Positions 16,200-34,118 of a stretch of DNA of 64,000 bases are shown one piece after another. Position numbers and translations under genes: made by a program. The notes under the pieces are model-generated. The model saw only the letters and a program-made list of their open reading frames with translations. It did no database searches and was not told the origin of the DNA. Source of the stretch: Ptychodera flava (lineage: Eukaryota > Hemichordata > Enteropneusta > Ptychoderidae); the NCBI RefSeq assembly GCF_041260155.1, contig NC_091929.1, positions 46,680,744-46,744,743 on the forward strand, in the 5' to 3' direction. How positions within the stretch are numbered: the first letter of the stretch is position 1; each line of letters begins with the position of its first letter.

Positions 16200-16570
16200 T
16201 GCTCAACAACACACTCAAGGAGTGAGGTAAGGCAAAATTACAAAACTCAGCAAACACTGGACGAAGCTGCTGCTGGGGAGTAACTAAAGTACAAGAAATA
16301 AATTTGGCAAGAGGTAGTTTGTTTTCGTGAGTAAAGATATACATGAACTTTTCTCTAGCATTCAAATCAAGAAAACCAGGATTATACAAACTAGTGGATG
16401 AAAATAGACTATCTCGATAAGCTCTGTATTTTGGACATTCTATTACAAAGTGAAATTCATCCTCAACTAAAGACTTACAATGCTTGCAGAATCTTTCATT
16501 TGCAGGAACTTTTGGAATTGACCTTCTACCCAGTTCTATTTGTAGGTTGTGATCCGAAATTCTTAGTTTT
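16186..16570 (-). pseudogene. LINE ORF2, C-terminal fragment
   Basis: This piece continues the ORF2 frame exactly where the piece ending at 27670 stops: WLTK is followed by LRISDHNLQIELGRR. It carries the C-terminal Cys/His motif CKHC(x12)C usual in this class of LINE (CKHCKSLVEDEFHFVIEC). The frame ends in a TAA supplied by the 3' (TAAAG)n tail. The copied bases 16566-16570 (GTTTT on +) are the left half of the Gypsy target duplication. Confidence 0.85.
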
Positions 16571-16863
16571 GAAGTGATAGCCGGGCGTGAATATATGTAC
16601 TCACCGTAAGCTAGAGTAGATGACTCTCCAGAACAGGAATCAGTCCTCTGTTCAGACAGCCGGATATCTGGCTTCTCAGGTAGTGAGTAGATAGATATAG
16701 TATCGTAGCGTAGAGCTGTGCGATGCTGATAGTAAGGCGGTAATAGTCGAACTGGCGTGTTCCGATGCGGAGATCACATGGTCCCAGGACGCTGACTCTG
16801 CGGGGGGTCGGCAGTATCCCCTAGCAACCAACAGGGGCAGTTGGGGGCGCTGTTCACACTACA
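16571..16863 (-). repeat. 3' LTR of the Gypsy element
   Basis: 293 bp. On the element strand it starts TGTAGTGTGAACAGCGCC and ends CTATCACTTC. It is nearly identical to 27377-27669. On the + strand it begins GAAGTGATAGCC and ends CACTACA. Boundaries were set from the shared sequence and the GTTTT duplication; the inner-end placement could shift by one to four bases. Confidence 0.9.
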
Positions 16864-16876
16864 CTCCTCCCCGTTT
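16864..16876 (-). promoter_or_regulatory. Polypurine tract
   Basis: On the element strand AAACGGGGAGGAG directly abuts the 3' LTR start TGTAGTG. This is the expected plus-strand primer site for an LTR retrotransposon, and it confirms the LTR boundary and the element's direction. Confidence 0.8.
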
Positions 16877-17156
16877 TATCAGACAGGTGGGACCCGCATC
16901 CACGACCTGGAAGGAAACAAAAACGAACAAACAAAAAGAACAGAGAGAAAGGGATAGCAGTTGTTTTCTCTTGAGGCTTCCCAGTGCGAATATTTCACAC
17001 CGGTGCTGCTCCCGTCACCAAGGGCGTTACCAGAGTAGCTCCCTCCTTGGATGGGTGGTTGTACTGGATTGGTCCTCAGGGCGCGCACCCTCTGGGGTCT
17101 GTGAAGTCCCCTCCCGGGCACGAGTCCCGCTCCAAATCCAGGTTTCCTGGACCTCT
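16877..17156. other. Gypsy 3' untranslated segment
   Basis: Non-coding stretch between the stop of the third ORF and the polypurine tract. Nothing else is recognised in it. Confidence 0.6.
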
Positions 17157-19634
17157 CTAGTCCCCATAGAGACGGCGGGTGTTGCTCATCGCCGTATGCA
17201 GGAGGCGCTTGATGTCTCCACCGCGGTGTCGTACTACCTCCTGCGCCACGTCACCGATGTATGCGGGGGTGTTGTACCGCTGGTCGGGCCATGGCATCAG
17301 ATACGGCGAATCCGTCTCCAGGAGGATCCGGTCCAGGGGGACGTCCCTCAGGGCCTCAACTTGCCTGTCGTCGAAGTCCGCCACCATTGCCGAGAAACTG
17401 AAATAGCAGTGGCGGAACGCCTGGCGCCATCTACGAAGGGTGCGCAGCTCTCCTGCGAAGTTATGGATATGGATGAGCTGGGTCGAATCGCACATCTCCT
17501 TGACGGTTACCAGGGCCAGGGCGTGAGTATCGCAGGCGTACTTATCCCCCGCCGCGCCTCTCAGGTGTAAGATGACTGGTTTGGCGGGGTCGGCCATGCT
17601 CAGGAGTTCCCTGAAGACGTCCTCTTGTTTCGTCCACTTGTCGCTGCCCACGGTTCTGTCGAGTCCGATTTCCCCTAGAGCGGCGACGTGTGGGGATGCA
17701 ACCAGGCGTCGGATCTCCTGCAGTACCTGGTTGCCTGCTCCGACGGCGGCTTTGGGGTGGAGGCCGATGGCAATCTTCCACCCTGGTTCCCGCGTCAGGT
17801 CTTCGGGGAAGGTTTCCGGGTCACAGTATACCTCCACTCCTCCAACCACTTGGACTGGCACTTCGGGTCGGACGCTTGGGCAGGCCGAGACTAGTTGAGC
17901 TGACGTTGTCACTCGGCTGCCTTTCCTGAGTTGTTTCACCGTCCGATCCAGGTGGAAATGTGAGTCCATAGCTTTCGGAAGTGGAGATTCCTGGCTACGT
18001 TCCCATCCGTACCTTGCTGGGGCCGCCGTCGGGTGTTCTGCTTCCTGACAGGCTGCTGCCACCTGCGTGCGAGGAAGTGGGGTCTCCCTGGTGGGCTTGG
18101 CTCCCCGCTGGTAACCTGCGGGGATCATTATTGGACTCCCTGGCACTTTGGCGGCGGCTGCTGCTGGTGGGCGAGGGCGCTCCTGGGCTCCCTTGCCAGT
18201 CCAACGCCGTACCCGGTCACGGTCCGCTGGGTCAAGGTCGTGTACCAGAGCTGACATGACTCTCCATTGGACCATGACAGCCGGAGTATTCGGTGGGTTG
18301 ATGCGGGGCTTCTCTGGGACGTCCCAGTTCATCCGGTGGCACAACCCCTCCATAGTCTTCCGGCAGGCGTCGGTGACTTTGGCGCCTTCGGGTATCCTGG
18401 CGTGGGCTCGGGCCTTCAGGTGGTCGTAGAGCGCCAAGATTGGCATACTAGGCCCCACCAGCTTCCTTGTCAGGAACTCCAGGAGGTCAACGATGGCGTT
18501 GTAGTCGACACGTCCTGGGTCTTCGCGGAGGCATCGGGGAAGGTGTTTTCTGAAGCAGTGCTCCTTGATCCCCTTCGACTCGAAGCGGCATCCCGGGAAA
18601 GGGCAGGGGGACGGTCGTCCGGCGTAGTAGCTCCCCGCTCGCTTGGATGAGCTGGGGTGGGGCTCCTCCTCCCTGCACCTCTTGCCGTTGGTCTCTTCGT
18701 CACCCGGGTGGCTCTGCAGGGTGACTGATCTTTCAAGTTGCCGCTTGCGTCGCTGCCTCCGCTTGGCTGCAGTTGTACGTCCCTGGCTGGGGTCTGGGCC
18801 CTGGGAGAGACTTCTCTCTGCGCTTGTCACTGGCTCCCGTTCAGTCCTCCCCTGATCCCCGCTGGGGTGGCTGGCTACATCCGAGGATGTGCTGGCCTGT
18901 TCCCCTTGGGGTTCTGGGGGCAGACTGCTGGAAACCAGTCCCTGCAGCACCGAGAATTGGAGTCTCGCCCCCTGGGCAGTGCTGGGCTTCTTCCTTCGTA
19001 CTGGCTCCCTACACAGATCTTCCTGGTCTTCCTCCGACGTCAGGCAGAAGAGGCTGTCGTCAGAGTCCGGAGCGGCGACTTCGATCTCTGGGGCTCCAGC
19101 CCCGGGGGTGGTGGTGGATTTTCCCTGGTCCCGTGGCGAAGGTGTTACAGCCGTCCGGGACAGATCGATGTCCTCGCTGACCTGTGTGGTAGGGGCAGAC
19201 TGGACCTCCCCAGCCAGTTGTGGTGGACGCTCTGTGGGCTCCCCCGACGCCGGCATGCCCTCCCTGTATACGGTAAGGTCAGAACGAGTCTGGAGACGTA
19301 TGTCCCGACACATACCGTAAGGGTTGGTGTTGGTGTCAACCGGCGTATGCTTCCTGGGTTTCGGTGGCCGAACGTTCTTCTTGGGGTTGATGTGTGGCAT
19401 GTTCTTGACTATCCAAGGCACATCAACCATGACGTCGGCCTCCTCCTGCATAGTCCGCACCCATCCCCAGTTGCCTCTCGCTTTGGCGATGTCATAGAGG
19501 GTGATGAGTGTTCGCTTGGCTTCGTGTATACCCAGGATGCTGAGGGCGCCCATGATCTCTCTAGGCTTGAGTAGTCGTCGGGCGCGGATAGCCTCCCGAA
19601 CATCCTCAAGGGTCAGTTGACCTCGCTGAGCCAT
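17157..19634 (-). CDS. Gypsy third ORF: C2H2 zinc finger plus TatD-type metal-dependent nuclease
   Basis: An 825-residue frame with a true ATG and no breaks. Residues 1-100 form a helical region of unknown type (LTLEDVREAIRARRLLKP...). About 100-340 is a low-complexity acidic/Ser-Pro linker with a basic patch near 289-301 (KRRQRRKRQ), a possible nuclear signal. A single C2H2 finger has C344, C349, H359 and H364. Residues 555-825 are a TatD/TATDN2-like hydrolase: H559 and H561 in DSHFHLD, GLHP at 624, E655 in GEIGLD, H690 in ILHLR, H724 in HIHNFAG and D775 in LLETDSPYL, so the metal ligands look complete. TatD proteins are metal-dependent DNases/exonucleases with a TIM-barrel fold. It occupies the env position, with a splice acceptor 17 nt before the ATG. 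There is no signal peptide or membrane segment, so it is not an envelope protein. A role in integration or cDNA processing, or in countering host defence, is speculation. Confidence 0.9.
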   Translation of the reverse strand: MAQRGQLTLEDVREAIRARRLLKPREIMGALSILGIHEAKRTLITLYDIAKARGNWGWVRTMQEEADVMVDVPWIVKNMPHINPKKNVRPPKPRKHTPVDTNTNPYGMCRDIRLQTRSDLTVYREGMPASGEPTERPPQLAGEVQSAPTTQVSEDIDLSRTAVTPSPRDQGKSTTTPGAGAPEIEVAAPDSDDSLFCLTSEEDQEDLCREPVRRKKPSTAQGARLQFSVLQGLVSSSLPPEPQGEQASTSSDVASHPSGDQGRTEREPVTSAERSLSQGPDPSQGRTTAAKRRQRRKRQLERSVTLQSHPGDEETNGKRCREEEPHPSSSKRAGSYYAGRPSPCPFPGCRFESKGIKEHCFRKHLPRCLREDPGRVDYNAIVDLLEFLTRKLVGPSMPILALYDHLKARAHARIPEGAKVTDACRKTMEGLCHRMNWDVPEKPRINPPNTPAVMVQWRVMSALVHDLDPADRDRVRRWTGKGAQERPRPPAAAAAKVPGSPIMIPAGYQRGAKPTRETPLPRTQVAAACQEAEHPTAAPARYGWERSQESPLPKAMDSHFHLDRTVKQLRKGSRVTTSAQLVSACPSVRPEVPVQVVGGVEVYCDPETFPEDLTREPGWKIAIGLHPKAAVGAGNQVLQEIRRLVASPHVAALGEIGLDRTVGSDKWTKQEDVFRELLSMADPAKPVILHLRGAAGDKYACDTHALALVTVKEMCDSTQLIHIHNFAGELRTLRRWRQAFRHCYFSFSAMVADFDDRQVEALRDVPLDRILLETDSPYLMPWPDQRYNTPAYIGDVAQEVVRHRGGDIKRLLHTAMSNTRRLYGD

Positions 19635-19650
19635 TGTATGGGGTCAACTC

Positions 19651-19664
19651 CCTGCAAGGAAACA
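19651..19664 (-). promoter_or_regulatory. Candidate splice acceptor for the TatD ORF
   Basis: On the element strand TTCTGTTTCCTTGCAG|GG lies 17 nt before the ATG of the third ORF and only a few nt after the Pol stop. It has a good pyrimidine tract and a consensus AG. Paired with the leader donor at 26616/26617 it would remove Gag and Pol, as in retroviral env splicing. Confidence 0.6.
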
Positions 19665-19678
19665 GAACAGGAACAAGG

Positions 19679-22600
19679 TTAGTGACATTTGAAATTGATG
19701 CATTTTGGGCAGATAAATTCGCCATGATGCGTTCTTTTGGCTGAGTCGATCCCTACGCACTGCGCGTGAAACCAATCAAAGCACGCATCGCATTGCAGCA
19801 TCAATTTGCCGTCATCTGGTTTACCGCATACGCAATACCCCCTCTCTCCCGAACCGACCTGATAACTGCGGCCTTTCCTACCAGCCTCCTGATATTTCTG
19901 GATCCAATCCGGTAGAACGTTGTCCCTACACAGCTTCATCCTATCGTGGTGGACCACGCTTTCCTGCCGTCTGATCTTGACCCTATACAGGTATGGCGTC
20001 AGTTTCCCCACCACGATTCCGGGGCCTTTCCAGGGAGGACTAAGCTTTCTACATTTCCCCTTGATTGTGGCTGTGTCCAAAATGTAGACGCGGTCGCCAA
20101 GGTTATATGCCTTGGTGTGGACTCTAAGGTCGTAATCGCGCTTCATCCTCTCCTGGTTGGTCTTGAGAGTCTTGCGTGCAATTTCGTGTGCGGTCTTCAG
20201 GGTCTGTTCCAAGTTCTGTACATATTGCCCGAGGTCTTCGGCTGAACTGGCAGATGGTTGGCTGTACATCAGCTCTGAGGGCAGGTTTACTTCCCTCCCG
20301 AGCATCAGTCTGTTGGCCGTATAGCCGGTACTGCGGTTCACGGATGCTCGCATGGCTGCTGCGATTTGAGACAGGTTGATATCCCAATCATTCTGCAAAT
20401 TTCCAACGTAGCATCTAACCGCGTTCATCAGCGTACGGTTATAGCGTTCCACTTGTCCGTTCGCTGACGGTCTATACGGCGTTGTTCTACGCTTGTGAAT
20501 GTGTAAGAGGTCGCAAACTGCCGCGAAGAGCTGGCTCTCGAAGTTCCTACCTTGGTCAGTAAACACTTCAAACGGACATCCGAAACGGGCGAAAAACTCA
20601 TTAACTGCCGCCTGGGCTGTGACCTCTGCCTCCTGAGATGGGAGTGGTATACATTCCACCCACTTGGTGAACTGGTCTACCATCATCAGGATGTGTTCAT
20701 TTCCATTTTTAGTCTTCGGCAAAGGCCTCAAAAAGTCGAGGTGCACCCGTTCCATTGGAGATCCGGCATGGAATTTGACCATTTCGAACTTGGAGTACTG
20801 TCGAGGCTTCTTGTTCTTGTTACACTTCGGGCAGCCGGCTATGAAATTTCTTACATCATCCGACATTCTGTGCCAGTAATACCTCAGTTTGATTCTGGAG
20901 AGTGTTCTTTGCACACCCTGGTGTCCTGCTGAGGGGATAGAATGGTTCAGGTCTATGACCTCCGATTTCAGTGAGGCCGGGATGACCAGTTGTTTTTCCC
21001 CTTCCTCATTCCCTTCCCTCCACAGTACACCTTCTGTGATGAAGAACATCTCCCTATTGATCCAGTAGTGCTTAGTTGCTGGGCTCGACAGCTTCAATTC
21101 GCCCTCGCTGGGTTCAGTCCCACCGTAAGCCCACTCGTACACATACTGTAACTCAGGGTCATTCTGCTGTGCTTCCTTGATGTCATCCGTAATGCCCCTA
21201 GGAATTGCCGTGCCTTCGTTTTGGTCACTGCTGCGGGTTACTACGTAGACTTTCGAGGTCGCACGCTCGCTGTCCCATACATGCTCGATATCAGCATGGG
21301 TATGGAACGCTGTTGTCGTCATGGGGTCCTCCGTGTGATTGTATTCGTTGTCCCATGATGTTCCGCCAGGGTCCCATGGCCAGGTGGGGCACTCATCGAA
21401 TTGCTCCCTTTGGCGTGGTGACAGCGTCTCTTCGGCGCTTGTCAGAACTTCAGTACCCTCTAGGCTCTCGCTGTCCTTATTCCTCCCATCGGCACCAGTC
21501 CCTGTATCCGGGTCAGCTAATAGCGTCATATCTGGACCGTTGGTTGGCATCGTGTCGGAGCCTGAGAGTGCTGTGGTGTCAGGGTCCGAGAGTGTCACCT
21601 CCCGGGCTGCATTTGACAGCGGCACGACGTAGTCTATGTCCTCCATGAAGGGTCCCCACTTGGTGTGGGCCCTCTCACAGTAGGCGCACCCTCCACAGGG
21701 CAGATGTTCCAGGGCGACATCGTGTCGGTAGTTTGGGCAAACGGCCCCTTCGCCTACTCTGGACAGAGCGTCTGCGTTGAGGTGTCTCCGGCCGGGTCGA
21801 TGTCTCACTTCCATGTCGTACTGACTTAATTCCTCCAGCCACCGGGCAAGTTGTCCCTGCGGCGCCTTGAAACTCAGCAACCACGTCAAGCTGTTGTGGT
21901 CCGTTCGGAGGAGAAAAGGCTTTCCCAGCAGGTAGTGCCGGAACTGCCGTGTAAACCGCACCACGGCCAGTAGTTCTTTCCTCGTGGTGCAGTACTTGCG
22001 TTGCTCCGGTGTTAAGCTGACACTGGCATATGCTATGACTCTTTCCTCCCCGTCCTGGACCTGCGACAACTCTGCGCCGAGGGCGGAATCAGATGCGTCA
22101 GTGTCCAGGACAAACCTGCCCGTCTGATTCGGCATGGCGAGTACTGGTGGCGACAGCAGTGTGGCCTTGATAGATTCAAATGCGGCCTGTTGCTCTTCTG
22201 TCCAGCAGAATGCCCGTTTTCCGGTAATTGCATAAAGGGGAGCTGCTAGGTCAGCAAAGTTCTTAATAAAACTACGGTGGTAGTTTGCCAACCCGAGAAA
22301 GCTCTCCACGTCCCTTGTCTTAGTGGGTAAGGGCCAGTCCTGGATCGCTTGAATCGATTCCTCTTCGAGGGCGACACAATTGTATGTGACCTTCCTACCG
22401 AGGAACGAGACGCTTGTCTGGAAGAGTTCGCACTTGCGGGGCTTCAGCTTCAGCTGGTATTGCCTCACACGCTGGAATACATCCCGCAAGTTCTGTAGGT
22501 GGTGCTCGAAGGACGTCCCCAGCACCATGATGTCGTCGAGAAAGGCAAGCACTACCTCCCATGTCAAACCCCTCAATACCAGGTTCATCACACGTGAGTA

Positions 22601-23269
22601 CGTGGCGGGAGCGTTGCAAAGTCCAAAGGGCATCCTCGTGAATTCGAAGAGCCCGTACTTGGTAACAAATGCAGTCTTCTTCCTGTCTTCAGGGTTGACT
22701 CTAACTTGCCAGTATGCTGAGTTGGCGTCTAACTTCGAGAACCATCTGTTCCCGGCCAAGGTGTCCATGCAGTCTTCAATCAGGGGGAGTGGGAATACGT
22801 CCTTGGTGGTCAGATTGTTGAGGGCGCGATAATCCACGCACCAACGAACGGACCCATCCCGTTTCCGGACAAGTACAGGTGCGGAGGCCCACTCGGACAC
22901 CGATGGCTGAATGACTTTGGCGTCGTACATCTTCTTGAGATGTGCCTGCTCCTCGGCCGCAAAGCATCGTGGGGTTCGCCTCATCTTGTGTTTGATTGGG
23001 TTCGCGTCCCCGGTGTTGATACTGTGATTCAGAGCAGTGAAATTGCCCAAGTCGAATTCATTGGCTGCGAACACGTCCTGGTACTCTATCAGGAGGTCTC
23101 GCAGCTGGCTTGCTTCGCCTGGACTTAAGTTTGTGCATGACCTCTTGAACAAGTCCTTCAAGTGTTCGGGCAAGCTTGCGTCACTGTTAGTTGTTGGTGT
23201 AGAGTTGTCAGTTGTTTCTTTGACCTCCTGTACTGTTACACTTTCAGCTAGTTCGGGGTACCGATTGCC
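19679..23269 (-). CDS. Gypsy Pol: reverse transcriptase, RNase H, integrase, PHD finger
   Basis: The long frame is open from 23269 to a stop at 19679; numbering here counts the 1164 residues from 23173. There is no ATG start, as expected if Pol is made as a fusion. RT: LDANSAYWQV (D149) and FLDD 211-214. RNase H: DTDAS 357-361, TDHNS near 424, NADALSR near 466. An acidic Asp/Thr/Ser linker of about 150 residues follows. Integrase: zinc-binding H744, H751, C781, C784, then catalytic D813, D873 and E909. After the C-terminal integrase fold (GDRVYILD..., PWKGPGIV) comes a C4HC3 PHD finger: C1114, C1116, C1128, C1131, H1136, C1139, C1155, C1158. LDFLRPLP has Arg where Gly is usual. The frame matches that of the protease ORF upstream, from which it is separated by TGA-AAT-TGA. 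Confidence 0.93.
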   Translation of the reverse strand, partial: GNRYPELAESVTVQEVKETTDNSTPTTNSDASLPEHLKDLFKRSCTNLSPGEASQLRDLLIEYQDVFAANEFDLGNFTALNHSINTGDANPIKHKMRRTPRCFAAEEQAHLKKMYDAKVIQPSVSEWASAPVLVRKRDGSVRWCVDYRALNNLTTKDVFPLPLIEDCMDTLAGNRWFSKLDANSAYWQVRVNPEDRKKTAFVTKYGLFEFTRMPFGLCNAPATYSRVMNLVLRGLTWEVVLAFLDDIMVLGTSFEHHLQNLRDVFQRVRQYQLKLKPRKCELFQTSVSFLGRKVTYNCVALEEESIQAIQDWPLPTKTRDVESFLGLANYHRSFIKNFADLAAPLYAITGKRAFCWTEEQQAAFESIKATLLSPPVLAMPNQTGRFVLDTDASDSALGAELSQVQDGEERVIAYASVSLTPEQRKYCTTRKELLAVVRFTRQFRHYLLGKPFLLRTDHNSLTWLLSFKAPQGQLARWLEELSQYDMEVRHRPGRRHLNADALSRVGEGAVCPNYRHDVALEHLPCGGCAYCERAHTKWGPFMEDIDYVVPLSNAAREVTLSDPDTTALSGSDTMPTNGPDMTLLADPDTGTGADGRNKDSESLEGTEVLTSAEETLSPRQREQFDECPTWPWDPGGTSWDNEYNHTEDPMTTTAFHTHADIEHVWDSERATSKVYVVTRSSDQNEGTAIPRGITDDIKEAQQNDPELQYVYEWAYGGTEPSEGELKLSSPATKHYWINREMFFITEGVLWREGNEEGEKQLVIPASLKSEVIDLNHSIPSAGHQGVQRTLSRIKLRYYWHRMSDDVRNFIAGCPKCNKNKKPRQYSKFEMVKFHAGSPMERVHLDFLRPLPKTKNGNEHILMMVDQFTKWVECIPLPSQEAEVTAQAAVNEFFARFGCPFEVFTDQGRNFESQLFAAVCDLLHIHKRRTTPYRPSANGQVERYNRTLMNAVRCYVGNLQNDWDINLSQIAAAMRASVNRSTGYTANRLMLGREVNLPSELMYSQPSASSAEDLGQYVQNLEQTLKTAHEIARKTLKTNQERMKRDYDLRVHTKAYNLGDRVYILDTATIKGKCRKLSPPWKGPGIVVGKLTPYLYRVKIRRQESVVHHDRMKLCRDNVLPDWIQKYQEAGRKGRSYQVGSGERGYCVCGKPDDGKLMLQCDACFDWFHAQCVGIDSAKRTHHGEFICPKCINFKCH
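19694..19837 (-). other. PHD finger at the Pol C-terminus
   Basis: Spacing C-x-C-x11-C-x2-C-x4-H-x2-C-x15-C-x2-C with the tryptophan-containing FDWFH core is a clean PHD finger. It replaces the chromodomain that chromoviral Gypsy integrases carry at this place. PHD fingers read histone H3 tails, so a role in targeting integration to chromatin is a reasonable inference. Confidence 0.85.
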
Positions 23270-24346
23270 TCAATTTCAGTTGCCGTGGCAACAGATCTGC
23301 CCCCTTTTATAGTTATCGCACGTCGGTTGGGTTGACAAACACACTTTGGGTTGCTGGCCACCTTCGTGAACCGTACGGGGCATAACGACCTGTAACTCCG
23401 AAATGGGTTCGATCATATACTCCCCAAGGGTCTGACTTAGGTGGCATGGGGCCCTAACCACTGAGTTAGGGGGTATAGTTGTTCTACCCTGCAGTGTGAC
23501 CTTTGCAACTTTACCTAAATTTCTCTTACGGTCAAAAGCCATGGGTACAGTCTCGTCACCGAACATTAGGCGGTTGTTGAGCATATCTAATACAACCCGT
23601 CTCGATCGCATGAAGTCCGCGCCTAAAAGCATGTCGTCCCCTATCGGTGGCGACATACACATTTTCGGTAAATTGGGTGGTACCTAGTTGGATCGAGACT
23701 GGCCCCACCTGGTAGGCTTTCATGCCCATTTCTCTGCCTGCTGTCTGCATAGTCGTAACCTTTATAACTGCAGGGGGTCCGCCAGTCGGTGGTAAAGGCG
23801 GTCCGAAATGATTGTTACTTCGGCAGCTGTATCCACGACCGCTTGTATTTCTTGGTCGTCCACTGAGATAGGTACGCTATACATGGAGCCAGACACAAGT
23901 TGATAAATCGTGATCGGCGTGGGGTCCTCTTTTTCGGCTCTCGGTTCGTAAGTCGGTACTTCAGTTGCTGTAACCAGTGGTGTATCATGTTCTAGATTGT
24001 CGCAATCCAAGTCCCATGGTGGCTCCTCTGGGGCGGTTGTCCAGAAATACTGAACAGGCTCTTCCATTGGAGTTTCTTCCACAGGCGTCTCTGGGACGTC
24101 CGTTTCCTCGTACGTCGAGGTGTCGGATACATCCCCTGTGTCAAGTTGGCTGGTGTGGGTCCGAGATTCAGTCCCACCTTCAGTTTGCACCTGAACCTCC
24201 TCCTGACTCGCGCGGGTTAGGGTTATATCTTCCCAGCCCTCCTCACAAAGTTGTTCGGAGAGATCGGACCCCCTATCTTCGCGTGAGATTGGCAGAGGTA
24301 CAGGTGGGGTATTGTCGGGTAGGCCTGCTGCGTCGTTACGGGTCAA
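23270..24346 (-). pseudogene. Gypsy protease region, frame-disrupted
   Basis: The first part (24346-23762) is in the -1 frame relative to Gag and in the Pol frame. It is acidic and Pro/Thr-rich at first, then has the aspartic-protease active site VVDTAAEVTII (DTA instead of DTG). Near 23770 the frame stops at TAA, and the homologous reading continues in another frame (AVIKVTTMQTAGREMG...FTENVYV) until about 23656. It then returns to the first frame with GDDMLLGADF, the second protease landmark. So two compensating indels displace about 115 nt. After the protease tail, TGA-AAT-TGA at 23270-23278 interrupts the link to RT. Assembly error or mutation could explain either; together they suggest this copy is defective. 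Confidence 0.8.
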
Positions 24347-24348
24347 GC

Positions 24349-26328
24349 CTAGGCCCTCTCGGTTGACCCAGCCTCGTTTAACCCCTCACTGAAAGTGACT
24401 TTCTTTTCTGGTGTTGTTGGCGTTTTACGTTGAGGGCAGTCTTTACGGAAATGCCCCACTTCGCCACAGCCGAAACACTGAGCGCGCCCAGGCGAAGGTG
24501 ATCTACTCCGCGGCCTGGACGAGTGTGTCATCGCGCGCGCCAGTTCGGTCATCTGTTTGGTGAGTGCCTCTAGGGTCGTACTGAGGGCGCCGATCTGAGT
24601 GACCTCAGCGTCTACCCTAGCCATACGTTCCTCAAGGCGAGCCAAACGTCGGTCGGAGTTCGGGCTGGCGTCAGGTTTTTGCCTGTCTGAGCTATCACGA
24701 CGGTAATCGGGCGAGTTCAACCTCCTCGGTTTGTCTTTGGAGGTATAACGCACGTTGAATTTTTCATTGTCGCTGTCGGGGTCCGACGAGACCCGGCGAA
24801 CTTCGCGTTTCGCTGCCCGTTTGCCATAAACTTCCCGGTTTATGTACTGACGTACCCGAACCTCGTCAATGGCTTTATCCATCGTAGCTGGTCGCTGAGC
24901 AGCAGCCTCCCTTCCGGCCTCCCTATCAATACAGCCAGTGCAAAATTTCATGATTGCCTGTCTGTCATTACGGTCGGAGAAGTCTGGGAAAGCCCGAGTT
25001 GCCAGTGAAAGCACACGGTCCGCCCACTCTTCTAAGGTTTCGTCAGGCACCTGTTGGGACTGCTGGAAGTTAAGTTGCGCTGCTTCGGGGAGTTCTTGAT
25101 ACCCGAAGCGTTTCTCTAGTTTCTTAATGAGCTCTTTGTAGCTGATGTTTTTCCCCTCTCGCTCGATAAGGAGGGTATAGTACTCGCTCGCAAGACCTTC
25201 GAAACACCAGCACAAATAGTCTTTTCTCTCTTCCTCAGTCCAGTCATGCGCTTTCGCGAAGGAGTCGAATTTGGTATAGAAGACGCCCCACTTCCTCCCC
25301 TTTTCTCCCGAGAAAGTCAGCGTCTTTGGTAGCGTAACCCGCTTAAGCGGAGCTTCTCTATCTCGGCGGGTAGGTGGGGGGACATCTTCGTCAGTGTCCT
25401 CTGAATTGGAATCGAGTCCGGACCATTTCCCCTTTGTGCTATAGCGCGGGTTCCCTCTAGCTGTGGGAGGGCCCCATGCTATCGCCCGATGGGGCTGGTC
25501 TCTCCTCACGCTTTCCCTGGCCCTGCTACGTCTTTGGCGGGTTTCCCTATCTGGGGAGTCCCTCCTTTGACTCAGGGGATAGGGTGGCGGCGGAGTGCGG
25601 TACGCGTTAGAGTCACGGGAGTAAGGTTGGTCCGTGCGACGGCTTCGCCTCTCCGAGCGGTAAATTATTTCTTCACCGTCGTTGTCGTCACGTTCCTTAT
25701 AGAACCCATCCGGTTTTCTTCCTGACGAAAAGTCCGCGTTCGCTGGTCTGCGGGCCTGCGCGCTGTGGCGACGGTGTTCTCCCTCTCCCCTCTTTGAGCG
25801 GTGAGGGCGCCAGTCATCGCCGTCAGAAAGGAAATCATCGTCGGATGGATAGTGGGAGGGGCTCGCCCTTCGTCCCATCCTTACCTCCCTGTGAGGTCGT
25901 TCGTCCCCGATGTCTTTATATTCAAGCCTTGGGTGAGCTCGTTTACTAATGCTATTGTCGTAGTTTTGGCTTAACCTATCGACTCTCTGGGCTAGTTCAG
26001 GGACGGGGACTGACGCTACGGAGTCTTCGTCATCCCAGTCCTGGGCTGCTTTTGTCGCCCAATCATCCCCTCCCCTGGTGTCATAACCCATGGTGTGACC
26101 TTCCCTACGATGGGCACCTGCTGTCCTTGGCCCATAGGTTATCATGTCGAAAAAGACAGCTTGGGGTCTAAAATTCCTGATGTTCTCTAGCCCCCTCGGG
26201 GTGACCCCTCCAGGCTGGTCCCTAAGTTTCATAATTTCTTTCGCTGTTTTCTTTCCGACCCCAGGTAGAACCAGCAGTGTCTCTGGGTCGCAATGATTTA
26301 AGTCTATCTTGTCCTCTGTAGACTCCAT
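24349..26328 (-). CDS. Gypsy Gag with N-terminal helix-hairpin-helix and C-terminal CCHC knuckle
   Basis: 659 residues from an ATG. Residues 8-53 carry a helix-hairpin-helix of the ComEA/HhH type (IDLNHCD..., LPGVGKKTAKEI), which binds DNA non-specifically in other proteins. Residues 80-320 are a long Arg/Ser/Asp-rich disordered region, with a PPPPY at 246-250 that matches the PPxY late-domain motif. The capsid-like core follows at about 335-500 (LTFSGEKGRKWGVFYTKF, then the EEWADRVLSLA helix). After it comes a Ser/Arg-rich stretch and a heptad-like helix (LEERMARVDAEVTQIGALSTTL). The CCHC knuckle has C618, C621, H626 and C631. The stop at 24349-24351 is followed by the protease frame in -1, so a frameshift would be needed to make Pol. 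Confidence 0.93.
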   Translation of the reverse strand: MESTEDKIDLNHCDPETLLVLPGVGKKTAKEIMKLRDQPGGVTPRGLENIRNFRPQAVFFDMITYGPRTAGAHRREGHTMGYDTRGGDDWATKAAQDWDDEDSVASVPVPELAQRVDRLSQNYDNSISKRAHPRLEYKDIGDERPHREVRMGRRASPSHYPSDDDFLSDGDDWRPHRSKRGEGEHRRHSAQARRPANADFSSGRKPDGFYKERDDNDGEEIIYRSERRSRRTDQPYSRDSNAYRTPPPPYPLSQRRDSPDRETRQRRSRARESVRRDQPHRAIAWGPPTARGNPRYSTKGKWSGLDSNSEDTDEDVPPPTRRDREAPLKRVTLPKTLTFSGEKGRKWGVFYTKFDSFAKAHDWTEEERKDYLCWCFEGLASEYYTLLIEREGKNISYKELIKKLEKRFGYQELPEAAQLNFQQSQQVPDETLEEWADRVLSLATRAFPDFSDRNDRQAIMKFCTGCIDREAGREAAAQRPATMDKAIDEVRVRQYINREVYGKRAAKREVRRVSSDPDSDNEKFNVRYTSKDKPRRLNSPDYRRDSSDRQKPDASPNSDRRLARLEERMARVDAEVTQIGALSTTLEALTKQMTELARAMTHSSRPRSRSPSPGRAQCFGCGEVGHFRKDCPQRKTPTTPEKKVTFSEGLNEAGSTERA

Positions 26329-27356
26329 TGTGGTGGCAATAATTTTTTGAAGTTGAGGACTTTAGGTTGAGGACTTTGTCTGGTATTGGAGCTCAAGTGT
26401 CACAAAGTGGGGTTGTACTTTAAAACCCAATGGACAATGATGTTTTCCAAAAATTTATTGAGCTCAACAATTATCAAAATCTGTCAAAATATTGCACTGG
26501 GTATACAACCCTATTCCTCCCTTACAAAACAATAGTTGCTTATAAAGGGTCTAGGAAGGGCGCCACCCTGCGCTAAAGTTGTGCAATGTGACTGTGGGAG
26601 GGCCCGGTATACTTACAAGCACACACACAGACACTTCCCTATCACACCGCTGGCTGACGTTAGCAACACCAGCTTAGATTTTCAACAACAAAATCTTTAT
26701 TGAAAATAAACTCGAAAATAAATAATGGTCCTTGTTTTCACACAAAAATAAAACGGTAAACGTCAACAAAAAGAATCAAATTCAATCACGCTGTACGGGG
26801 CACCGTCAGGCGACAGCCGAACCAACCTGTGGCGCGAATCCTGAGTCACGTGACGGAATTTTCCCAGCGCGCGGTAAATTCAGTGAGAGAATTTGAGCAA
26901 GGGCCGAACGTTTCCAAAACGCACCCTACGGCAATTTGCTACAAAAATCCTCGCACAAAATGGACAAAAACTAGTGTGAGAGGGTCTGACTTACGTCTCC
27001 CTTCTAATTTTGGAACAGTGAGAGCTCACTTGCTCTGATTGAAAACTGTTCTTTGATCTCACGCGTGTGTGGGCAGCCGCGTCACTACGGACTGGCTTTC
27101 CCGTGGTTGCGTGAAAAAATCAAAGCCGTACGATCGCACCACACCGTACAAAAAATATGACTTGCCCCAAAACCTCCGTCCCTCCTCCTTCTTGGGAGAG
27201 AAAAGGCTAGCTGGGGAAGTCAAAAACTAAAAAATTTCGCAGCGATCACTCCCTTAACCCAAAGGCAGTGGACCGCGGCACGACGGACGAGTCTAACTCT
27301 GAATCGCCTCGTGCAAAATTAGAAAAAGTGGCTAGCACCCCACGTCTGGTTCGGAG
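26329..27356. other. Gypsy 5' leader
   Basis: About 1 kb between the primer-binding site and the Gag ATG. It has no coding sequence I can support. It contains the strong donor at 26609-26616 and some short repeats such as CACACACACAG. Confidence 0.65.
26609..26617 (-). promoter_or_regulatory. Candidate splice donor in the Gypsy leader
   Basis: On the element strand GCTT|GTAAGTAT is close to a perfect U1 match. It lies upstream of the Gag ATG, so joining it to the acceptor at 19651 would give a subgenomic RNA whose first long ORF is the TatD protein. Confidence 0.5.
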
Positions 27357-27374
27357 CTTTTGCTCACAGCGCCA
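27357..27374 (-). promoter_or_regulatory. tRNA primer-binding site
   Basis: TGGCGCTGTGAGCAAAAG begins two bases after the 5' LTR end. TGG at the start pairs with the CCA end of a tRNA. Which tRNA it is cannot be fixed from the sequence alone. It confirms the orientation of the element. Confidence 0.7.
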
Positions 27375-27376
27375 GT

Positions 27377-27669
27377 GAAGTGATAGCCGGGTGTGAATAG
27401 ATGTACTCACCGTAAGCTAGAGTAGATGACTCTCTGGAACAGGAATCAGTCCTCTGTTCAGATAGTCGGATATCTGGCTTCTCAGGTAGTGAGCAGATAG
27501 ATATAGTATCGTAGCGTAGAGCTGTGTGATGCTGATAGTAAGGCGGTAATAGTCGAACTGGCGTGTTCCGATGCGGAGATCACATGGTCCTAGGACGCTG
27601 ACTCTGCGGGGGGTCGGCAGTATCCCCTAGCAACCAACAGGGGCAGTTGGGGGCGCTGTTCACACTACA
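27377..27669 (-). repeat. 5' LTR of the Gypsy element
   Basis: 293 bp, matching 16571-16863 with nine differences counted by eye. On the element strand it starts TGTAGTGTGAAC, directly after the AAAAC duplication, and ends CTATCACTTC. It is presumed to carry the promoter and polyadenylation signals. Confidence 0.9.
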
Positions 27670-29648
27670 GTTTTGTCAGCCACCTCCTATAGGTAAAAGA
27701 TCTTATATCTAGCAAGTAACTTTCAAATTCAAATTTTGTCTTAAATAGTCTGTAAGTTCGGAGCTTATTCCTCTGCATTCCACACTTCCTTGTATCATTA
27801 TGAATGTTTCTCAACCATGTTTGATCATAAGTTTCACATAAACTATCACATACATTATTAACTGTGGAATTGATATTGCAAACACAAGACCATATATCAC
27901 TCCCACTGTAAGAGTTCAAAATGCTTTGTATATAATTAGACCAATCTGAATTCAACCTGGATGTATAAGCAGATCTCAGTAAGATGTCATCTGACAAAAC
28001 TAATCTATGCCAGTATTTGAGCATGTGCTTTATCACCATAAAGTCGGTCCGGGTTTTGGGACTCGCCTAAAGTGAATTGGATATCTACCCAGCTCTCCAA
28101 CAACACCATCAGACGGTGCATGTTTAGAGACTCCTAGGATAAATCTATAAAAAGATATACTAACATCATTGAGAAAGTTACATTTGTCATTAATTTCATG
28201 TCCCCATATTTCACAGCCATATGTCATAATAGGAACAATTAAACTATCAAAGAGTGATAATGCAACTTTTACAGAAAGTGAACCATTCTGAAGGCCCTTA
28301 CGAAGGCTGAAAAGAGCTTTCATTGCCTTCAATTTAAGATTATGAAAATTACCTTTGAATCTACCATTTGGGGTAATGACAAAACCAAGGTAACAGTACT
28401 CTTTCACTAAGTCAAGAGTCACTCCATTGTAAGTGAGTGTAACTCCTTTTACAAGATGATTACTTTTGTTAAACACAATAACTTTCGTTTTCTTTATGTT
28501 AATAGACAATTTCCATTCACGACAAAAACTATGAAGTTTATCTAAGCAGCTTTGTAAGCCTGTTTCAGATTCTGAAATCAATAAAAGATCATCAGCATAC
28601 ATTAGACAATTGATAAGGAGTTTACCAAGTTTGATAGGACAGTCCTGACTGGAACCATATGTACTGGGAAGATCATTTATAAAAATATTAAACAAAGTTG
28701 GACTTAAGTTACACCCTTGCTTAACTCCTAAATTGGAGTCAAATTCTTCAGTAAAGCAGTTGTTACTTTTCACACAATACTTAATGTTGTCGTACATGGA
28801 CTTAATTAAGCTATAAAAATTACCATTAATGCCATATTTCTGTAATTTCCAAAGTAAACCTGTACGCCAAACCCTGTCAATGCTTTCTGAAAATCTACAA
28901 AACAGCAATAAAGGTACCTACGACTGGGACTATAGCTTGGCTGAGAAATTTTCGCATAGACATGTTGATTGATAGCAGAACGCAAAACAAGAAGATTATC
29001 TGCAGTTCTCCTCTTTGCTCTGAAACCAGACTGAAATGGTGAAAGAATACCATTGCTATTAAGAAAGTTTATAAACCTATTATTCAACACAGAGGTAAAC
29101 AGTTTTGCAAGGCAACTATTTATAGAAATCCCTCTGTAATTTGACGGATCACATGTATCACCTTATTTGAACACAGGGACCAAATATGCTTTTTTCCAAG
29201 CATTAGGAAACGTTCCTGATCTGAAGATGACATTGAATAATGAACACAATGGAGTAAGTATGGAAGAACCACCATATTTTAGCATTTCATTCAAAATACC
29301 ATCGACACCTGGGGATTTCCCTGATTTTAATTTACGCAAAGCCTTAAATATTTCTGATTCTCTAAATGTGGAATTAAGAATAAAGTTCACATCATATTCA
29401 TTGGCAGCTTCCATTTTTGTTAATTCAGATATGATACGTTTAGAAACATTATCAGTTTCTTCACAAGAAAAATCACATAACTGCTTAAAGTGATGAAACC
29501 ATTCAGCAGGAGAGATAGATGAATCAATTTTCTTACAGACACGACTCCCTGAAATATCCTTCCACAATTTCCAGTAATCATTACGGTCTTCGGAATAAAC
29601 CCTTTCTAATTTCCTTAATTGACTCTCTCTGAAAGTTGACCGTTTATT
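27670..29648 (-). pseudogene. LINE ORF2, reverse transcriptase portion
   Basis: The pieces read in order from 29648: STFRESQLRKLERVY, YDVNFILNSTF, GKSPGVDGILNEMLKYGG, and YLVPVFK followed by a nonsense TAA at 29161-29163. The frame then continues through NYRGISIN and FQSGFRAKRRTADNLL to VDFQKA; a frameshift near 28880 comes before DRVWRTGLL. Catalytic LMYADDLLLIS is at about 28580-28615, preceded by GVKQGCNLSPTLFNIFIND. Another frameshift near 28040 comes before the thumb/connection part. At 27670 the Gypsy element cuts the frame, which resumes at 16570. At 29648 the tandem-repeat element cuts it from the endonuclease side. Confidence 0.88.
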
Positions 29649-32352
29649 AGTCCCCACGGACACCGTCCGGGGGGACTTATAGGTTTGGTCATGTCCGTGC
29701 GTGCGTCCGTGCGTGGTCCGTCCGTCCGTCCGTGCGTCCGTCCGTTCACGCAGATATCTCAGAGATGCAAAGAGCGATTTCATTCAAACTTGGTACAAGG
29801 ATTACTTCATATGTCATACAGATGCACGTTGATTTGTTTTGTGATACGATCCAATATGGCCGCCAGGCGGCCATTTTATTACGATTTTTTCATGTAAAGA
29901 GCCATAACTCAGACATGTTTCAACCGATTTTATTCAAAGTTGGTACAAGGACATTGACCAATGTCATAGATATGTACATTGATTTTTTGTGTGATACGAT
30001 CCAATATGGCCGCCAGGCGGCCATTTTATTACGATTTTTTCATGTAAAGAGCCATAACTCAGACATGTTTCAACCGATTTTATTCAAAGTTGGTACAAGG
30101 ACATTGACCAATGTCATAGATATGTACATTGATTTTTTTTGTGATACGATCCAATATGGCCGCCAGGCGGCCATTTTATTACGATTTTTTCATGTATAGA
30201 GCCATAACTCAGACATGTTTCAACCGATTTTATTCAAAATTGGTACAAGGACATTGACCAATGTCATAGATATGTACATTGATTTTTTTTGTGATACGAT
30301 CCAATATGGCCGCCAGGCGGCCATTTTATTACGATTTTTTCATGTAAAGAGCCATAACTCAGACATGTTTCAACCGATTTTATTCAAAGTTGGTACAAGG
30401 ACATTGACCAATGTCATAGATATGTACATCGATTTGTTTTGTGATACGATCCAATATGGCCGCCAGGCGGCCATTTTATTACGATTTTTTCATGTATAGA
30501 GCCATAACTCAGACATGTTTCAACCGATTTTATTCAAAATTGGTACAAGGACATTGACCAATGTCATAGATATGTACATTGATTTGTTTTGTGATATGAT
30601 CCAATATGGCCGCCAGGCGGCCATTTTATTACGATTTTTTCATGTATAGAGCCATAACTCAGACATGTTTCAACCGATTTTATTCAAAGTTGGTACAAGG
30701 ACATTGACCAATGTCATAGATAGGCACGTTGATTTTTTTGGTGATACGATCCAATATGGCCGCCAGGCGGCCATTTTATTACGATTTTTTCATGTAAGGA
30801 GCCATAACTCAGGCATATCTCAACCCATTTTATTCAAAGTTGGTACAAGGACATTGACCCATGTCATACATATGTACATCGATTTGTTTTGTGATACGAT
30901 CAAATATGGCTGCCAGGCAGCCATTTTATTACGATGTTTTCATGTACAGAGCCATAATACTCAGACATGTATCAAGCGAATTTATTCAAAGTTGGTACAA
31001 GGAGATTGACTAATGTCATACATATGCATGTCAATTTGTTATGTGATACGATCCAATATGGCTGCCGTGCGGCCATTTTGTTACGATTTTTTCATGTACA
31101 GAGCCATAATTCTCAGGTATATCTCAACCGATTTTATTCAAAGTTGGTACAAGGACATTAACCTATGTCATACATATGTAGGTCAATTTGCTTCATGATA
31201 TGATCCAATATGGCTGCATGGCAGCCATTTTGTTACAATTTTTTCATGTCCTTTGCCAAAACTTGGGCACATCTCAACTGATTTTATTCACGGATTTTAT
31301 TGAAACATAGTGCAAGGACATTGACCTATGTCATACATATGCACATTGATTTGTTTTGTGATACAATCCAATATGGCCGCAGTGGTGCCATTTTTTTTCT
31401 GAATTTTTCATGTCTGGAACCATAACTCAGACTTGTATCAAGCGAATTTATTCAAAGTTGGTACAGGACATTGACTTATTTATACATATGTATGTCGATT
31501 TGTTTCACGAGATGGTCCAATATGGCCACATGGTAGCAATTTTGTTATGGTTGTTTCATGTCGAGAGCCATAACTCTGGCAAGTCTCAACTGATCTTATT
31601 CGAAATTGGTACATGGACTTTGACTTATGTTATACATATACGTGTTGATTTTTTAAATAGTGAGATCAAATATCGCTGCATGGCTGTGATTTTGTTACAA
31701 TTTTCGAATGTACAGAGCCATAACTCAGACATATTTCCACCAGTATCATTCAAAGTTGGTACAAGGACATTGACCTATTTCATACATACGCTCGTCAATT
31801 TCTTTCACATCATGTAGCAGTAACATGTCAATTATTGAAGTTTCGTAAGTAGGCTGATATGTCAAGAAATACTGCATCAAATTCATGAAATTTTGTACAG
31901 ATGTTAAGCTCACATTGCTTTAACATTGAAAAAGGCATTTATCAGTGTCATTTTCATTAATTTTTAATTGCATAAGTAATGAACTTTCCTAATTAGAGTG
32001 ATATAGCCACAAATTAATACAACGTCAAATTTGATGAACCTTGATACAGATGTTGATCTCATAGTGTTGTAGATACTGCATCAAGAAATATGGTAACATT
32101 GAAATCTGTTAAGTGTTAGGATTGTATGCAAAAGTGTTTTACAACATCCTGCTGATTAATTCCTAGTTGACTCATTTTATGAACTTTAGATGGTTGCCTA
32201 CATTGGTTTTATGTTTTCATCACCATGGAACTCATTCTTGGCCATTGAGCACCATCTGTATCGCAGTATTTTTATCACAGACCTAATTAATGAAGATGAC
32301 TCTATCCTCTCTGAGGACATGTAATCAAAGTACCCATTAACAAGTGGGGACT
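29649..32352. mobile_element. Tandem-repeat-bearing element inserted in the LINE
   Basis: The 2.7 kb insert is bounded by AGTCCCCAC (29649) and GTGGGGACT (ends 32352), an inverted pair, and it interrupts the LINE ORF2 between KLLKYK and STFRESQ. After the left end comes a GTCCGTGCGTGCGTCC-rich block (29655-29750), then the 150 bp array (about 29770-31815). A less repetitive AT-rich tail of about 530 bp follows. There is no transposase, so it is non-autonomous. I could not find a clear target-site duplication. Its superfamily is unknown. Confidence 0.7.
29770..31815. repeat. 150 bp tandem array, about 13 copies
   Basis: CCAATATGGCCGCCAGGCGG recurs every 150 bases (about 29850, 30000, 30150, 30300, 30450, 30600, 30750). 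It then appears more diverged to about 31800, with small indels after 30950. The left copies are almost identical, while the right ones are clearly decayed. Because 150 is a multiple of three, one frame stays open through each copy (a ~50-residue unit beginning MFQPILFKVGTRTL), broken only by TAG in some units. That is probably chance plus periodicity. GGCCGCCAGGCGGCC is itself an inverted repeat within the unit. Confidence 0.9.
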
Positions 32353-33612
32353 GTGTCATCAACGATGACTTGTATTTTAATAGTTTTTTGTATTCTGTTT
32401 TTAGAGTGAACATCTCTCTCTAATATGTGGATCATTTGGGTAGCGATTCAACAATTTACAGCAATCTTTAAGATCTTTACGAAGTGAAAAACAAGACTTA
32501 TCAAACCAAGGCTGAAAAACACGTTTTGATTTCTTCTTTTTCAATTTTGGCGTTACCTTACCTAAACAGCGATCTGAAACTTTGTGAATAATACCTTCAA
32601 ATACTTTTACAATATTATCACAAGAATGGGAACTATGACACTCAATATTAAAATTTCTAAAGTCTTCTTGAATAGATGAACGTTGCAGAGTATTAAGAAA
32701 TTTTGTTTAGCATTATCATTCCACAAATATTTACTTGAACATGGTTTACATTCTACATCAACTGACTGCTTCACAATATTATTTATATTCATAGAAAAAC
32801 CTATTGGACAATGATCAGAGAAATGTGTAAAAGCATATACTTTGAAATAATCTATACGGTTCGCCAAATTCTTTGTAACAATACCATAATCTACTGAACT
32901 AAATCCATTTCCCTTGTAACAAGTTGGTTTTCCATAAAGATCCCCTGCAGTTCTACCATTTAAAATCTGTAAGCCGTTTTGAATGCAAAGATCAATAAGT
33001 TGTCTCCCAAAGGAATTGATACTACAACTACCATTATCCATTGAAATTCTATTGTGTACAGAGTCAGGAATATAATCATTAGGTGTAGGACAGTGATTTA
33101 TGTTATCATGTTGAATATAATCTTGCAAATTACCTGTCCTGGCATTAAAGTCTCCTACTAACATTATGTCTCCCAAACTAGAAAATTCAAGAATCTCAGA
33201 ATGAAGAGTTTCAAAATAATCATTATTTACATGCATTACAGACCCTTGTGGAGGTAAATATACACAACACATAAAAACATCACTACTGAATGAGAAAAAA
33301 TCCTTATCAAGTTTTACCCAGAGCAAGTCAGAAATTTTTGATTTTATCTTATGAATACCTGTCTTAAGGCACGACTTAAATACAACAACAGATCCCCAGC
33401 AGCACGTTTACTACGTTTATGTTGTAAACTTCTATCAGATCGAAAATAACTATAACTATCTAATGCAACAGTGTTTGACTTCGAAAGCCACGTTTCTTGA
33501 ATACACATTATATCAAATTGGTTAACAATTGATAGAAAATCTTCATTATCATATTTTTTGATAAACCACCTTGGATGTTCCAACCAACACGTAAGAAAGA
33601 ACGCTTAAAATT
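32353..33612 (-). pseudogene. LINE ORF2, AP-endonuclease portion
   Basis: Starting near 33610 (VGWNIQGG, carrying the N-terminal Asn), then IMCIQETWLSK with the catalytic Glu, MLVGDFNARTG with Asp and Asn, SSVDYGI, and HFSDHCPI with the terminal Asp-His. This is the standard exonuclease/endonuclease/phosphatase set. Frameshifts occur near 33550, 33390 and 32700. After the endonuclease the frame continues (KKKKSKRVFQPWFDKSCFSLRK...) to KLLKYK at about 32370, where the tandem-repeat element begins. Confidence 0.88.
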
Positions 33613-34118
33613 TCTTCTTAAAACAGCAGTACTCTGTCTCCGCGAAGTAAAACACATGGCAGTGTAAAAGCTGACTAACAGAACTGGATAAATTGAAGGA
33701 AAACTTGATGAACAGCTGACTACAAATAGAAATAGAAAAAAGTAGCCAGAACAACAGGTGTGCTAAATTAAGCACTACCTTGACAAATGTTAATAGACAC
33801 TCAACTCTATTGAAGCACAGTGTAACATTGTAGCCATAGTGGCTGTATCCAGAACGTTCCAGGACATTAAAAACAAACAACATGAAAAGAAACAAAGCAC
33901 ATCAACATATGCTGGTCACAATCTAAATCTAGTTGCGATCACCATGGTCATATCTACTAGTGTATACACCATTGCCATAATTATAGTATGGCCTTCTATT
34001 GTAGGGCCTATTTACTTGGAAAGAATCACTACTATCCACCCGTCTAAAATTTGACGGGGATCTATATGTATGAGAATGAGTGGTCACACTGCTCCTCTTT
34101 GATGCTCTGACACCCCAT
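33613..34118. other. LINE inter-ORF spacer
   Basis: About 500 bp between LINE ORF1 and ORF2. The open frame at 33605-33895 (-) is not a recognised protein. Confidence 0.5.

Follow-up and report, generated by a model that had tools for sequence, protein, structure and literature searches.

A Ty3/Gypsy-type retrotransposon of the acorn worm Ptychodera flava with a predicted zinc-finger TatD-type nuclease gene in the env position

We analyzed a 64,000-nt stretch of the Ptychodera flava genome (contig NC_091929.1, positions 46,680,744 to 46,744,743; the window) and found that a Ty3/Gypsy-type long terminal repeat (LTR) element, spanning 16570-27669 on the minus strand, carries a third open reading frame (ORF3) between Pol and its 3' LTR. 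As judged from its sequence, the product of ORF3 looks like a nuclease of the TatD type that has a zinc finger, an active site without missing residues and a predicted activity. Our preferred reading is that ORF3 is a genuine accessory nuclease gene of this Gypsy lineage, spliced in the manner of env, kept by selection and acting on the element's own nucleic-acid intermediates, a proposal that we hold to be about evenly poised between right and wrong. The evidence for it is the anatomy of the element, the active-site residues of ORF3, a domain core found across phyla and an uneven protein change between copies.

ORF3 starts with an ATG at 19634 and runs down to 17157 on the minus strand, encoding 825 amino acids (aa) in what is the env position of the element (Table 1), a place that in related elements is taken by an envelope gene or left empty. 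In 100 simulated sequences of 64 kb with the first-order base composition of ORF3, chance open runs in the six frames reach 496 codons at the longest, with a mean of 332. The protein consists of an N-terminal domain (residues ~9-87), a long linker, a C2H2 finger (344-364), an NSPAxLxHWR-type domain (~365-470) and a TatD domain (557-824). A preliminary description of this DNA had reported the 825-codon frame, its position between Pol and the 3' LTR, the finger and the TatD domain, all of which are confirmed; its strand has to be corrected, as the element lies on the minus strand. The Pfam match by which that description proposed to check the domain was found, with PF01026 aligned to residues 557-824 (E 3.5e-38, 131.9 bits vs a cut-off of 27), and TatD is the sole Pfam family in ORF3 at E 0.001. 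The finger residues C344, C349, H359 and H364 and the ligands H559, H561, E655, H690, H724 and D775 listed there are all located, and the ligands, together with H626 and E773, the likely counterparts of E. coli TatD H62 and E201, make up the metal-binding and catalytic set (8/8 residues checked). E. coli TatD loses activity when E91, E201 or D203 is mutated, H62 is called critical, and two-metal TatDs have two further histidines (PMC4176340). By alignment and motif, E655, E773, D775 and H626 are paired with E91, E201, D203 and H62, H559 and H561 with the two further histidines, and H690 and H724 with the remaining pair of metal histidines. The best solved relatives by sequence are the bacterial YcfH and TatD, ahead of TATDN1 and TATDN3; a profile of 53 aligned family members (described below) scores 156.5 bits on YcfH, 68.9 on TATDN3 and 64.9 on TATDN1. 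ORF3 does not reach the curated cut-off of NCBIfam TIGR00010 (YchF/TatD subfamily), scoring 108.7 bits vs 206.

The boundaries of the element are well defined. Its LTRs are 294 nt each, begin with TG and end with CA, and differ at nine positions (3.1% diverged), eight of them transitions. When the flanks are rejoined with a single AAAC, an open frame runs across the junction, representing the empty site. The rejoined flanks resemble the tail of the ORF2 of a long interspersed nuclear element (LINE), with the reverse transcriptase part upstream in a different frame; this LINE-like, reverse transcriptase-bearing remnant (27674-28908 and 16300-16565, minus strand) is divided by the Gypsy insertion. 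Just inside the 5' LTR lies a putative primer-binding site, TGGCGCTGTGAGCA, a possible complement of the 3' end of a tRNA-Ser. The order of Pfam domains within Pol is reverse transcriptase, RNase H and integrase, as in Ty3/Gypsy. The protease of this copy is broken, as the preliminary description had noted, with its frame interrupted between about 23.8 and 23.2 kb; because of this interruption, this copy is not autonomous.

The splice signals around ORF3 suggest how it could be expressed. ORF3 is in a different frame from Pol, and 44 nt separate the two. The ORF3 ATG lies 17 nt past the cut of a predicted splice acceptor whose last intron base is 19652. On a simple score with general consensus frequencies, untrained on P. 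flava, this acceptor ranks 6 of the 6986 AG sites scored on both strands of the window, the donor at 27410 in the 5' LTR ranks 16 of 7622, and a donor within gag at 25884 ranks 6. Because a strong donor in the 5' LTR is combined with a top-ranked acceptor immediately before the ATG, the ORF3 protein probably has a spliced mRNA of the env kind as its source; retroviral env mRNAs show this arrangement of donor and acceptor. The second strong acceptor, at 16907, makes a short, fully spliced RNA possible.

Relatives of ORF3 were collected by two single-protein searches and a profile search; of the 206 matches of one of these searches, the 120 listed were considered. Among the matches listed, TatD proteins of the ORF3 family come from Ptychodera, Saccostrea, Crassostrea, Mytilus (three species), Dreissena, Pinctada and Mya, and also from Haliotis, Elysia, Nucella, Strongylocentrotus and Lytechinus. 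ORF3 is closely matched by two further gene models of P. flava (96% identity over 37% of the query and 90% over 52%), and a profile search with a 10-row alignment returns three P. flava proteins only. The finger, the A..WR signature and TatD occur together in the bivalve models and in both sea-urchin models; the finger is missing from the Haliotis model and one Crassostrea model, and the Elysia and Nucella models show no clear match to NSPAxLxHWR. The core of finger, NSPAxLxHWR domain and TatD is thus recurrent in bivalves and sea urchins and partial in gastropods. In the 53-row alignment (P0001, P0002-P0010, P0013-P0053, P0097 and P0103, the window's ORF3 included), all eight active-site residues are present in 42 rows, the aligned CCHH in 41, both in 33 and the A..WR signature in 36. 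A profile of the N-terminal domain, built from four distant members (P0003, P0009, P0010 and P0013), detects 26 of 55 proteins at E <1e-3, or 22 of 51 excluding the four builders, with P0001 at E 4e-12. A link to an element elsewhere is given by the Mytilus edulis gene model P0007, in which a retroviral-type protease is followed by an integrase zinc domain, the finger and TatD; its protease is 50% identical to that of the window over 48 aa, and its integrase zinc domain is 37% identical over 91 aa of Pol. Other carriers of the ORF, on which the preliminary description made its proposal depend, thus exist at the protein level: the two P. flava models and P0007.

In a quick tree of the 53 rows and ten other TatD proteins among the matches listed, the 53 rows form one side of a branch with a support of 100 in the Shimodaira-Hasegawa-like approximate likelihood ratio test (SH-aLRT). 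P0053, from the crustacean Macrobrachium, and P0097 diverge first from the remaining rows. We presume that P0053 resembles a host TATDN2 protein, and the finger, the NSPAxLxHWR signature and the N-terminal domain of ORF3 are undetected in it. Because a protein of this general build splits at the base of the tree, descent of ORF3 from a TATDN2-like host gene is plausible. A GVxV[FY]CDP-type motif, defined after viewing the family, occurs in 43 of the 53 rows, including P0053 and P0097, and in 0 of 71 other TatD proteins. Since 25 of the 60 inner branches are weakly supported, the tree is compatible with vertical descent and with horizontal transfer, which it does not distinguish. Three finger-TatD proteins (P0026, P0034 and P0035) are filed under bacterial Sedimenticola assemblies, where they probably represent DNA from the animal host. 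When prokaryote genome contigs are scanned with P0026 and with a finger-HWR alignment, no relative appears. Viral contigs, scanned with ORF3, Pol, three relatives and both alignments (53-row and finger-HWR), yield no copies of the element; the matches are only TatD-coding loci, in seven contigs. Among phage records, tblastn with ORF3 gives TatD-domain matches only, in the best 5 of 21 records, and PHROGs contains no family for ORF3 or Gag and four for Pol, all over the integrase core.

The better evidence for retention of ORF3 is the comparison between copies and between species. At the amino-acid level, the P. flava gene models P0012 and P0011 differ from this copy at 43 of 430 and 10 of 307 aligned residues, respectively. 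The differences are unevenly distributed, with 5 in the 300 residues of the finger, HWR and TatD domains vs 47 in 423 elsewhere (Fisher p 2.6e-7; bins fixed before counting). Among the 47 in the N-terminal domain and linkers, 8 fall within the N-terminal 100 residues. The final 14 residues aligned in P0011, with 1 difference, are omitted from the count, because the frame of P0011 is lost there. This uneven distribution is independent of a stop-codon simulation, modeling substitutions only, in which none of 200 runs keeps a stop-free frame when ORF3 drifts neutrally until it is as diverged as the TatD part of P. flava P0002. The results partly support the interpretation given in the preliminary description: what they support is a TatD ORF borne by the element in the env position, with relatives in other copies and species and with constraint at the protein level. 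The occurrence of relatives in mussels, oysters, snails and sea urchins suggests, as far as sequence comparison goes, that Gypsy-type elements have kept a TatD-type nuclease for a long time.

Several observations weigh against our preferred reading. The argument of the preliminary description that ORF3 is still used because it is open while the protease is broken proves weak. In simulations of neutral drift since insertion (LTR divergence 3.1%), the frame stays open in 30% of runs for ORF3, 19% for Pol and 42% for Gag, so the open frame of this copy is weak evidence by itself, and we rejected an intact frame alone as proof of use. Drift to the divergence of the close copies leaves ORF3 stop-free in 7 of 200 runs, and the stop-codon simulation is weaker than it appears, because gene models are stop-free by construction. 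The evidence for retention between copies is at the protein level and comes from gene models, one of which (P0011) has lost its frame near its end. At least one active-site residue is lacking in 11 of the 53 rows, some of which are cut or misaligned and some substituted. In the profile search, the N-terminal domain is not significant in the sea urchin models (E 0.17 and 0.52) or in Nucella (E 0.14). Finally, BLASTP with the Gag, protease and Pol of the window against 126 proteins matches P0007 alone, which leaves room for the other relatives to be host genes.

That ORF3 itself is a host gene beside or within LTR debris is highly improbable. In its favor, the protease domain is absent from the gene model in 52 of the 53 aligned relatives, and BLASTP links 125 of the 126 proteins to none of the Gag, protease and Pol of the window; however, ORF3 is enclosed by two matching LTRs, with a duplication of 4 bp and an empty site that is open across the junction, which largely refutes a stray host gene for this copy, and P0007 joins a Gypsy protease and integrase to the same ORF. 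It is quite improbable that a host TatD gene was acquired and is merely carried along as a decaying passenger. Neutral runs leave the frame open often enough to allow this, and for the enzymatic ORF3s of bdelloids the departure from neutrality was not significant (PMC5408684), but the same domain core is found across several phyla, amino-acid differences are unevenly spread between the P. flava copies, and the splice acceptor sits immediately before ORF3.

Two further alternatives accept ORF3 as a working gene of the element and assign it another task. It could be a post-transcriptional regulator like CERV of the C. elegans element Cer1, a nucleic-acid binder made from a spliced mRNA for export or stability of genomic RNA, with a TatD fold whose main use is in binding or RNA trimming. 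In Cer1, the env-position ORF is part of a spliced-mRNA protein required for genomic RNA export (PMC10309623), ORF3 is flanked by two of the six top-scoring acceptors of the window, and its product has, in addition to TatD, a finger, basic linkers and an N-terminal domain. The eight active-site residues kept in most rows would be needless for a pure binder, and we consider this explanation fairly unlikely. In the other alternative, which we regard as unlikely, the nuclease would act in counter-defence by cutting host small RNAs, R-loops at silenced loci or sensor ligands, shielding the element from silencing. R-loops are a target of TATDN2 (PMC12709183), and helicase domains of retrotransposons have been proposed as silencing suppressors (PMC6338049). 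QatD, a TatD protein of a bacterial phage-defence system, is among the weaker profile matches, but its 62.2 bits are far below the curated cut-off of 230 and reflect the common TatD domain.

Our preferred reading, an accessory nuclease for the element's own intermediates, involves a splicing, catalysis, substrate and life-cycle step that we infer as follows. The finger and basic linkers would hold the env-style spliced product of ORF3 on the nucleic acid of the element, and the protein would trim or remove single-stranded 3' ends, or RNA in RNA-DNA hybrids. Such substrates would arise while the element is reverse-transcribed or ahead of its integration. Single-stranded DNA and RNA are digested in the 3'-5' direction by E. 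coli TatD (PMC4176340); for TATDN2, RNA 3' exonuclease and endonuclease activity and the resolution of R-loops are described (PMC12709183). Because substrates of these kinds are made by reverse-transcribing elements, a role on the element's intermediates may be proposed.

Enzymatic ORF3s are already known, and a TatD nuclease in an LTR element is a new variety of them within the literature searched. The LTR retrotransposons of bdelloid rotifers carry enzymatic ORF3s of the DEDDy exonuclease and GDSL esterase types (PMC5408684). As in those elements, the extra enzyme ORF of the P. flava element lies between pol and the 3' LTR, with intact active-site residues, and one of the bdelloid types is also a nuclease; unlike the RNase D-like (DEDDy) nuclease of bdelloids, the predicted nuclease of the P. 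flava ORF3 belongs to the TatD type and also has a C2H2 finger and other conserved domains (PMC5408684). Cer1 is likewise an LTR element with an ORF in the env position, expressed there via a spliced mRNA and here by predicted splicing (PMC10309623). The CERV ORF has no obvious homology beyond Caenorhabditis according to that paper, the portions of which drawn on here mention no nuclease domain. Orchid Ty3/Gypsy elements with an N6-methyladenosine (m6A) RNA demethylase domain are also a case of an enzymatic domain acquired by Gypsy, unlike the present element in being from plants and in encoding a demethylase (PMC9289625). LTR retrotransposons are considered to gain and keep an additional enzymatic domain only rarely (PMC9289625), and a chromodomain and a DnaQ-like exonuclease are cited as accessory domains (PMC6338049). 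With TATDN2 and the TatD/YcfH nucleases, ORF3 shares the TatD domain and its metal-binding and catalytic residues (PMC12709183, PMC4176340). No TatD-bearing retrotransposon is among the matches listed in our literature search, whose scope excluded Repbase and most subscription journals, so that prior notice is possible.

Table 1. Features of the Ty3/Gypsy-type element, in window coordinates
Feature	Coordinates	Strand	Basis
Target-site duplication AAAC, 5' side	27670..27673	-	
5' LTR (TG...CA), 294 nt, containing a strong splice donor at 27410	27376..27669	-	
Putative primer-binding site TGGCGCTGTGAGCA, one base inside the 5' LTR	27361..27374	-	sequence
Gag: N-terminal helix-hairpin-helix (PF12836), Retrotrans_gag, CCHC knuckle	24349..26328	-	Pfam
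Protease, N-terminal part (PF13650), frame interrupted downstream	23762..24346	-	Pfam
Pol: reverse transcriptase, RNase H, integrase (zinc-binding N-domain and core), terminal PHD finger	19679..23173	-	Pfam
Pyrimidine tract and CAG of putative splice acceptor (last intron base 19652), after the Pol stop and before the ORF3 ATG	19652..19678	-	
ORF3	17157..19634	-	open reading frame, Pfam
Second strong putative acceptor, between ORF3 and the 3' LTR, rank 2/6986	16907..16928	-	
Purine-rich tract preceding the 3' LTR	16864..16880	-	
3' LTR, 294 nt	16570..16863	-	
Target-site duplication AAAC, 3' side	16566..16569	-	

Other parts of the element also have distinctive features. A helix-hairpin-helix, which is unusual in Gag proteins, occupies Gag residues 5-55 (26164-26316, minus strand; PF12836, E 2e-7). 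The active-site motif of the protease is DTA both in the acorn worm element and in the mussel P0007, the usual motif being DTG or DSG. At the end of the integrase, Pol residues 1114-1158 (19700-19834, minus strand) form a PHD finger (PF00628, E 1.1e-9) that is nearest, by sequence, to the PHDs of DIDO1, TAF3, BPTF, PHF2 and Spp1. These are readers of trimethylated lysine 4 of histone H3 (H3K4me3), and because of this relationship the finger may be a chromatin-targeting module that aims integration at active promoters. A candidate precedent for such a PHD (PMC3286476) was set aside, as it concerns a gene near an insertion and not a domain of an element. Elsewhere in the window, a tandem array of ~150 bp units, parts of which are up to 99% alike, spans 29661-31846. 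An endonuclease-type ORF (PF14529) near a GDSL lipase-like ORF (PF13472), at 32607-35126 on the minus strand, may belong to another retroelement with an esterase. Two inverted-repeat pairs lie at 1379-1747 and 2183-2832, with arms of 73 nt (93%) and 144 nt (83%), respectively. The window gives no Rfam match at the gathering threshold and no tRNA with ARAGORN.

We tentatively extend this picture to an old Gypsy lineage of acorn worms, sea urchins and molluscs, in which a helix-hairpin-helix Gag, an integrase with an H3K4me3-type PHD and a spliced env-position nuclease needed for the life cycle would work together, an idea that we regard as doubtful. If it is true, many mollusc database "TatD" genes would be retrotransposon ORFs and not host genes. 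Mussel and pearl-oyster proteins annotated as TatD may be transposon proteins, and their annotation could need correcting. With a domain core in several phyla and fitting splice signals, it becomes testable whether a Gypsy element needs a nuclease besides RNase H and integrase.
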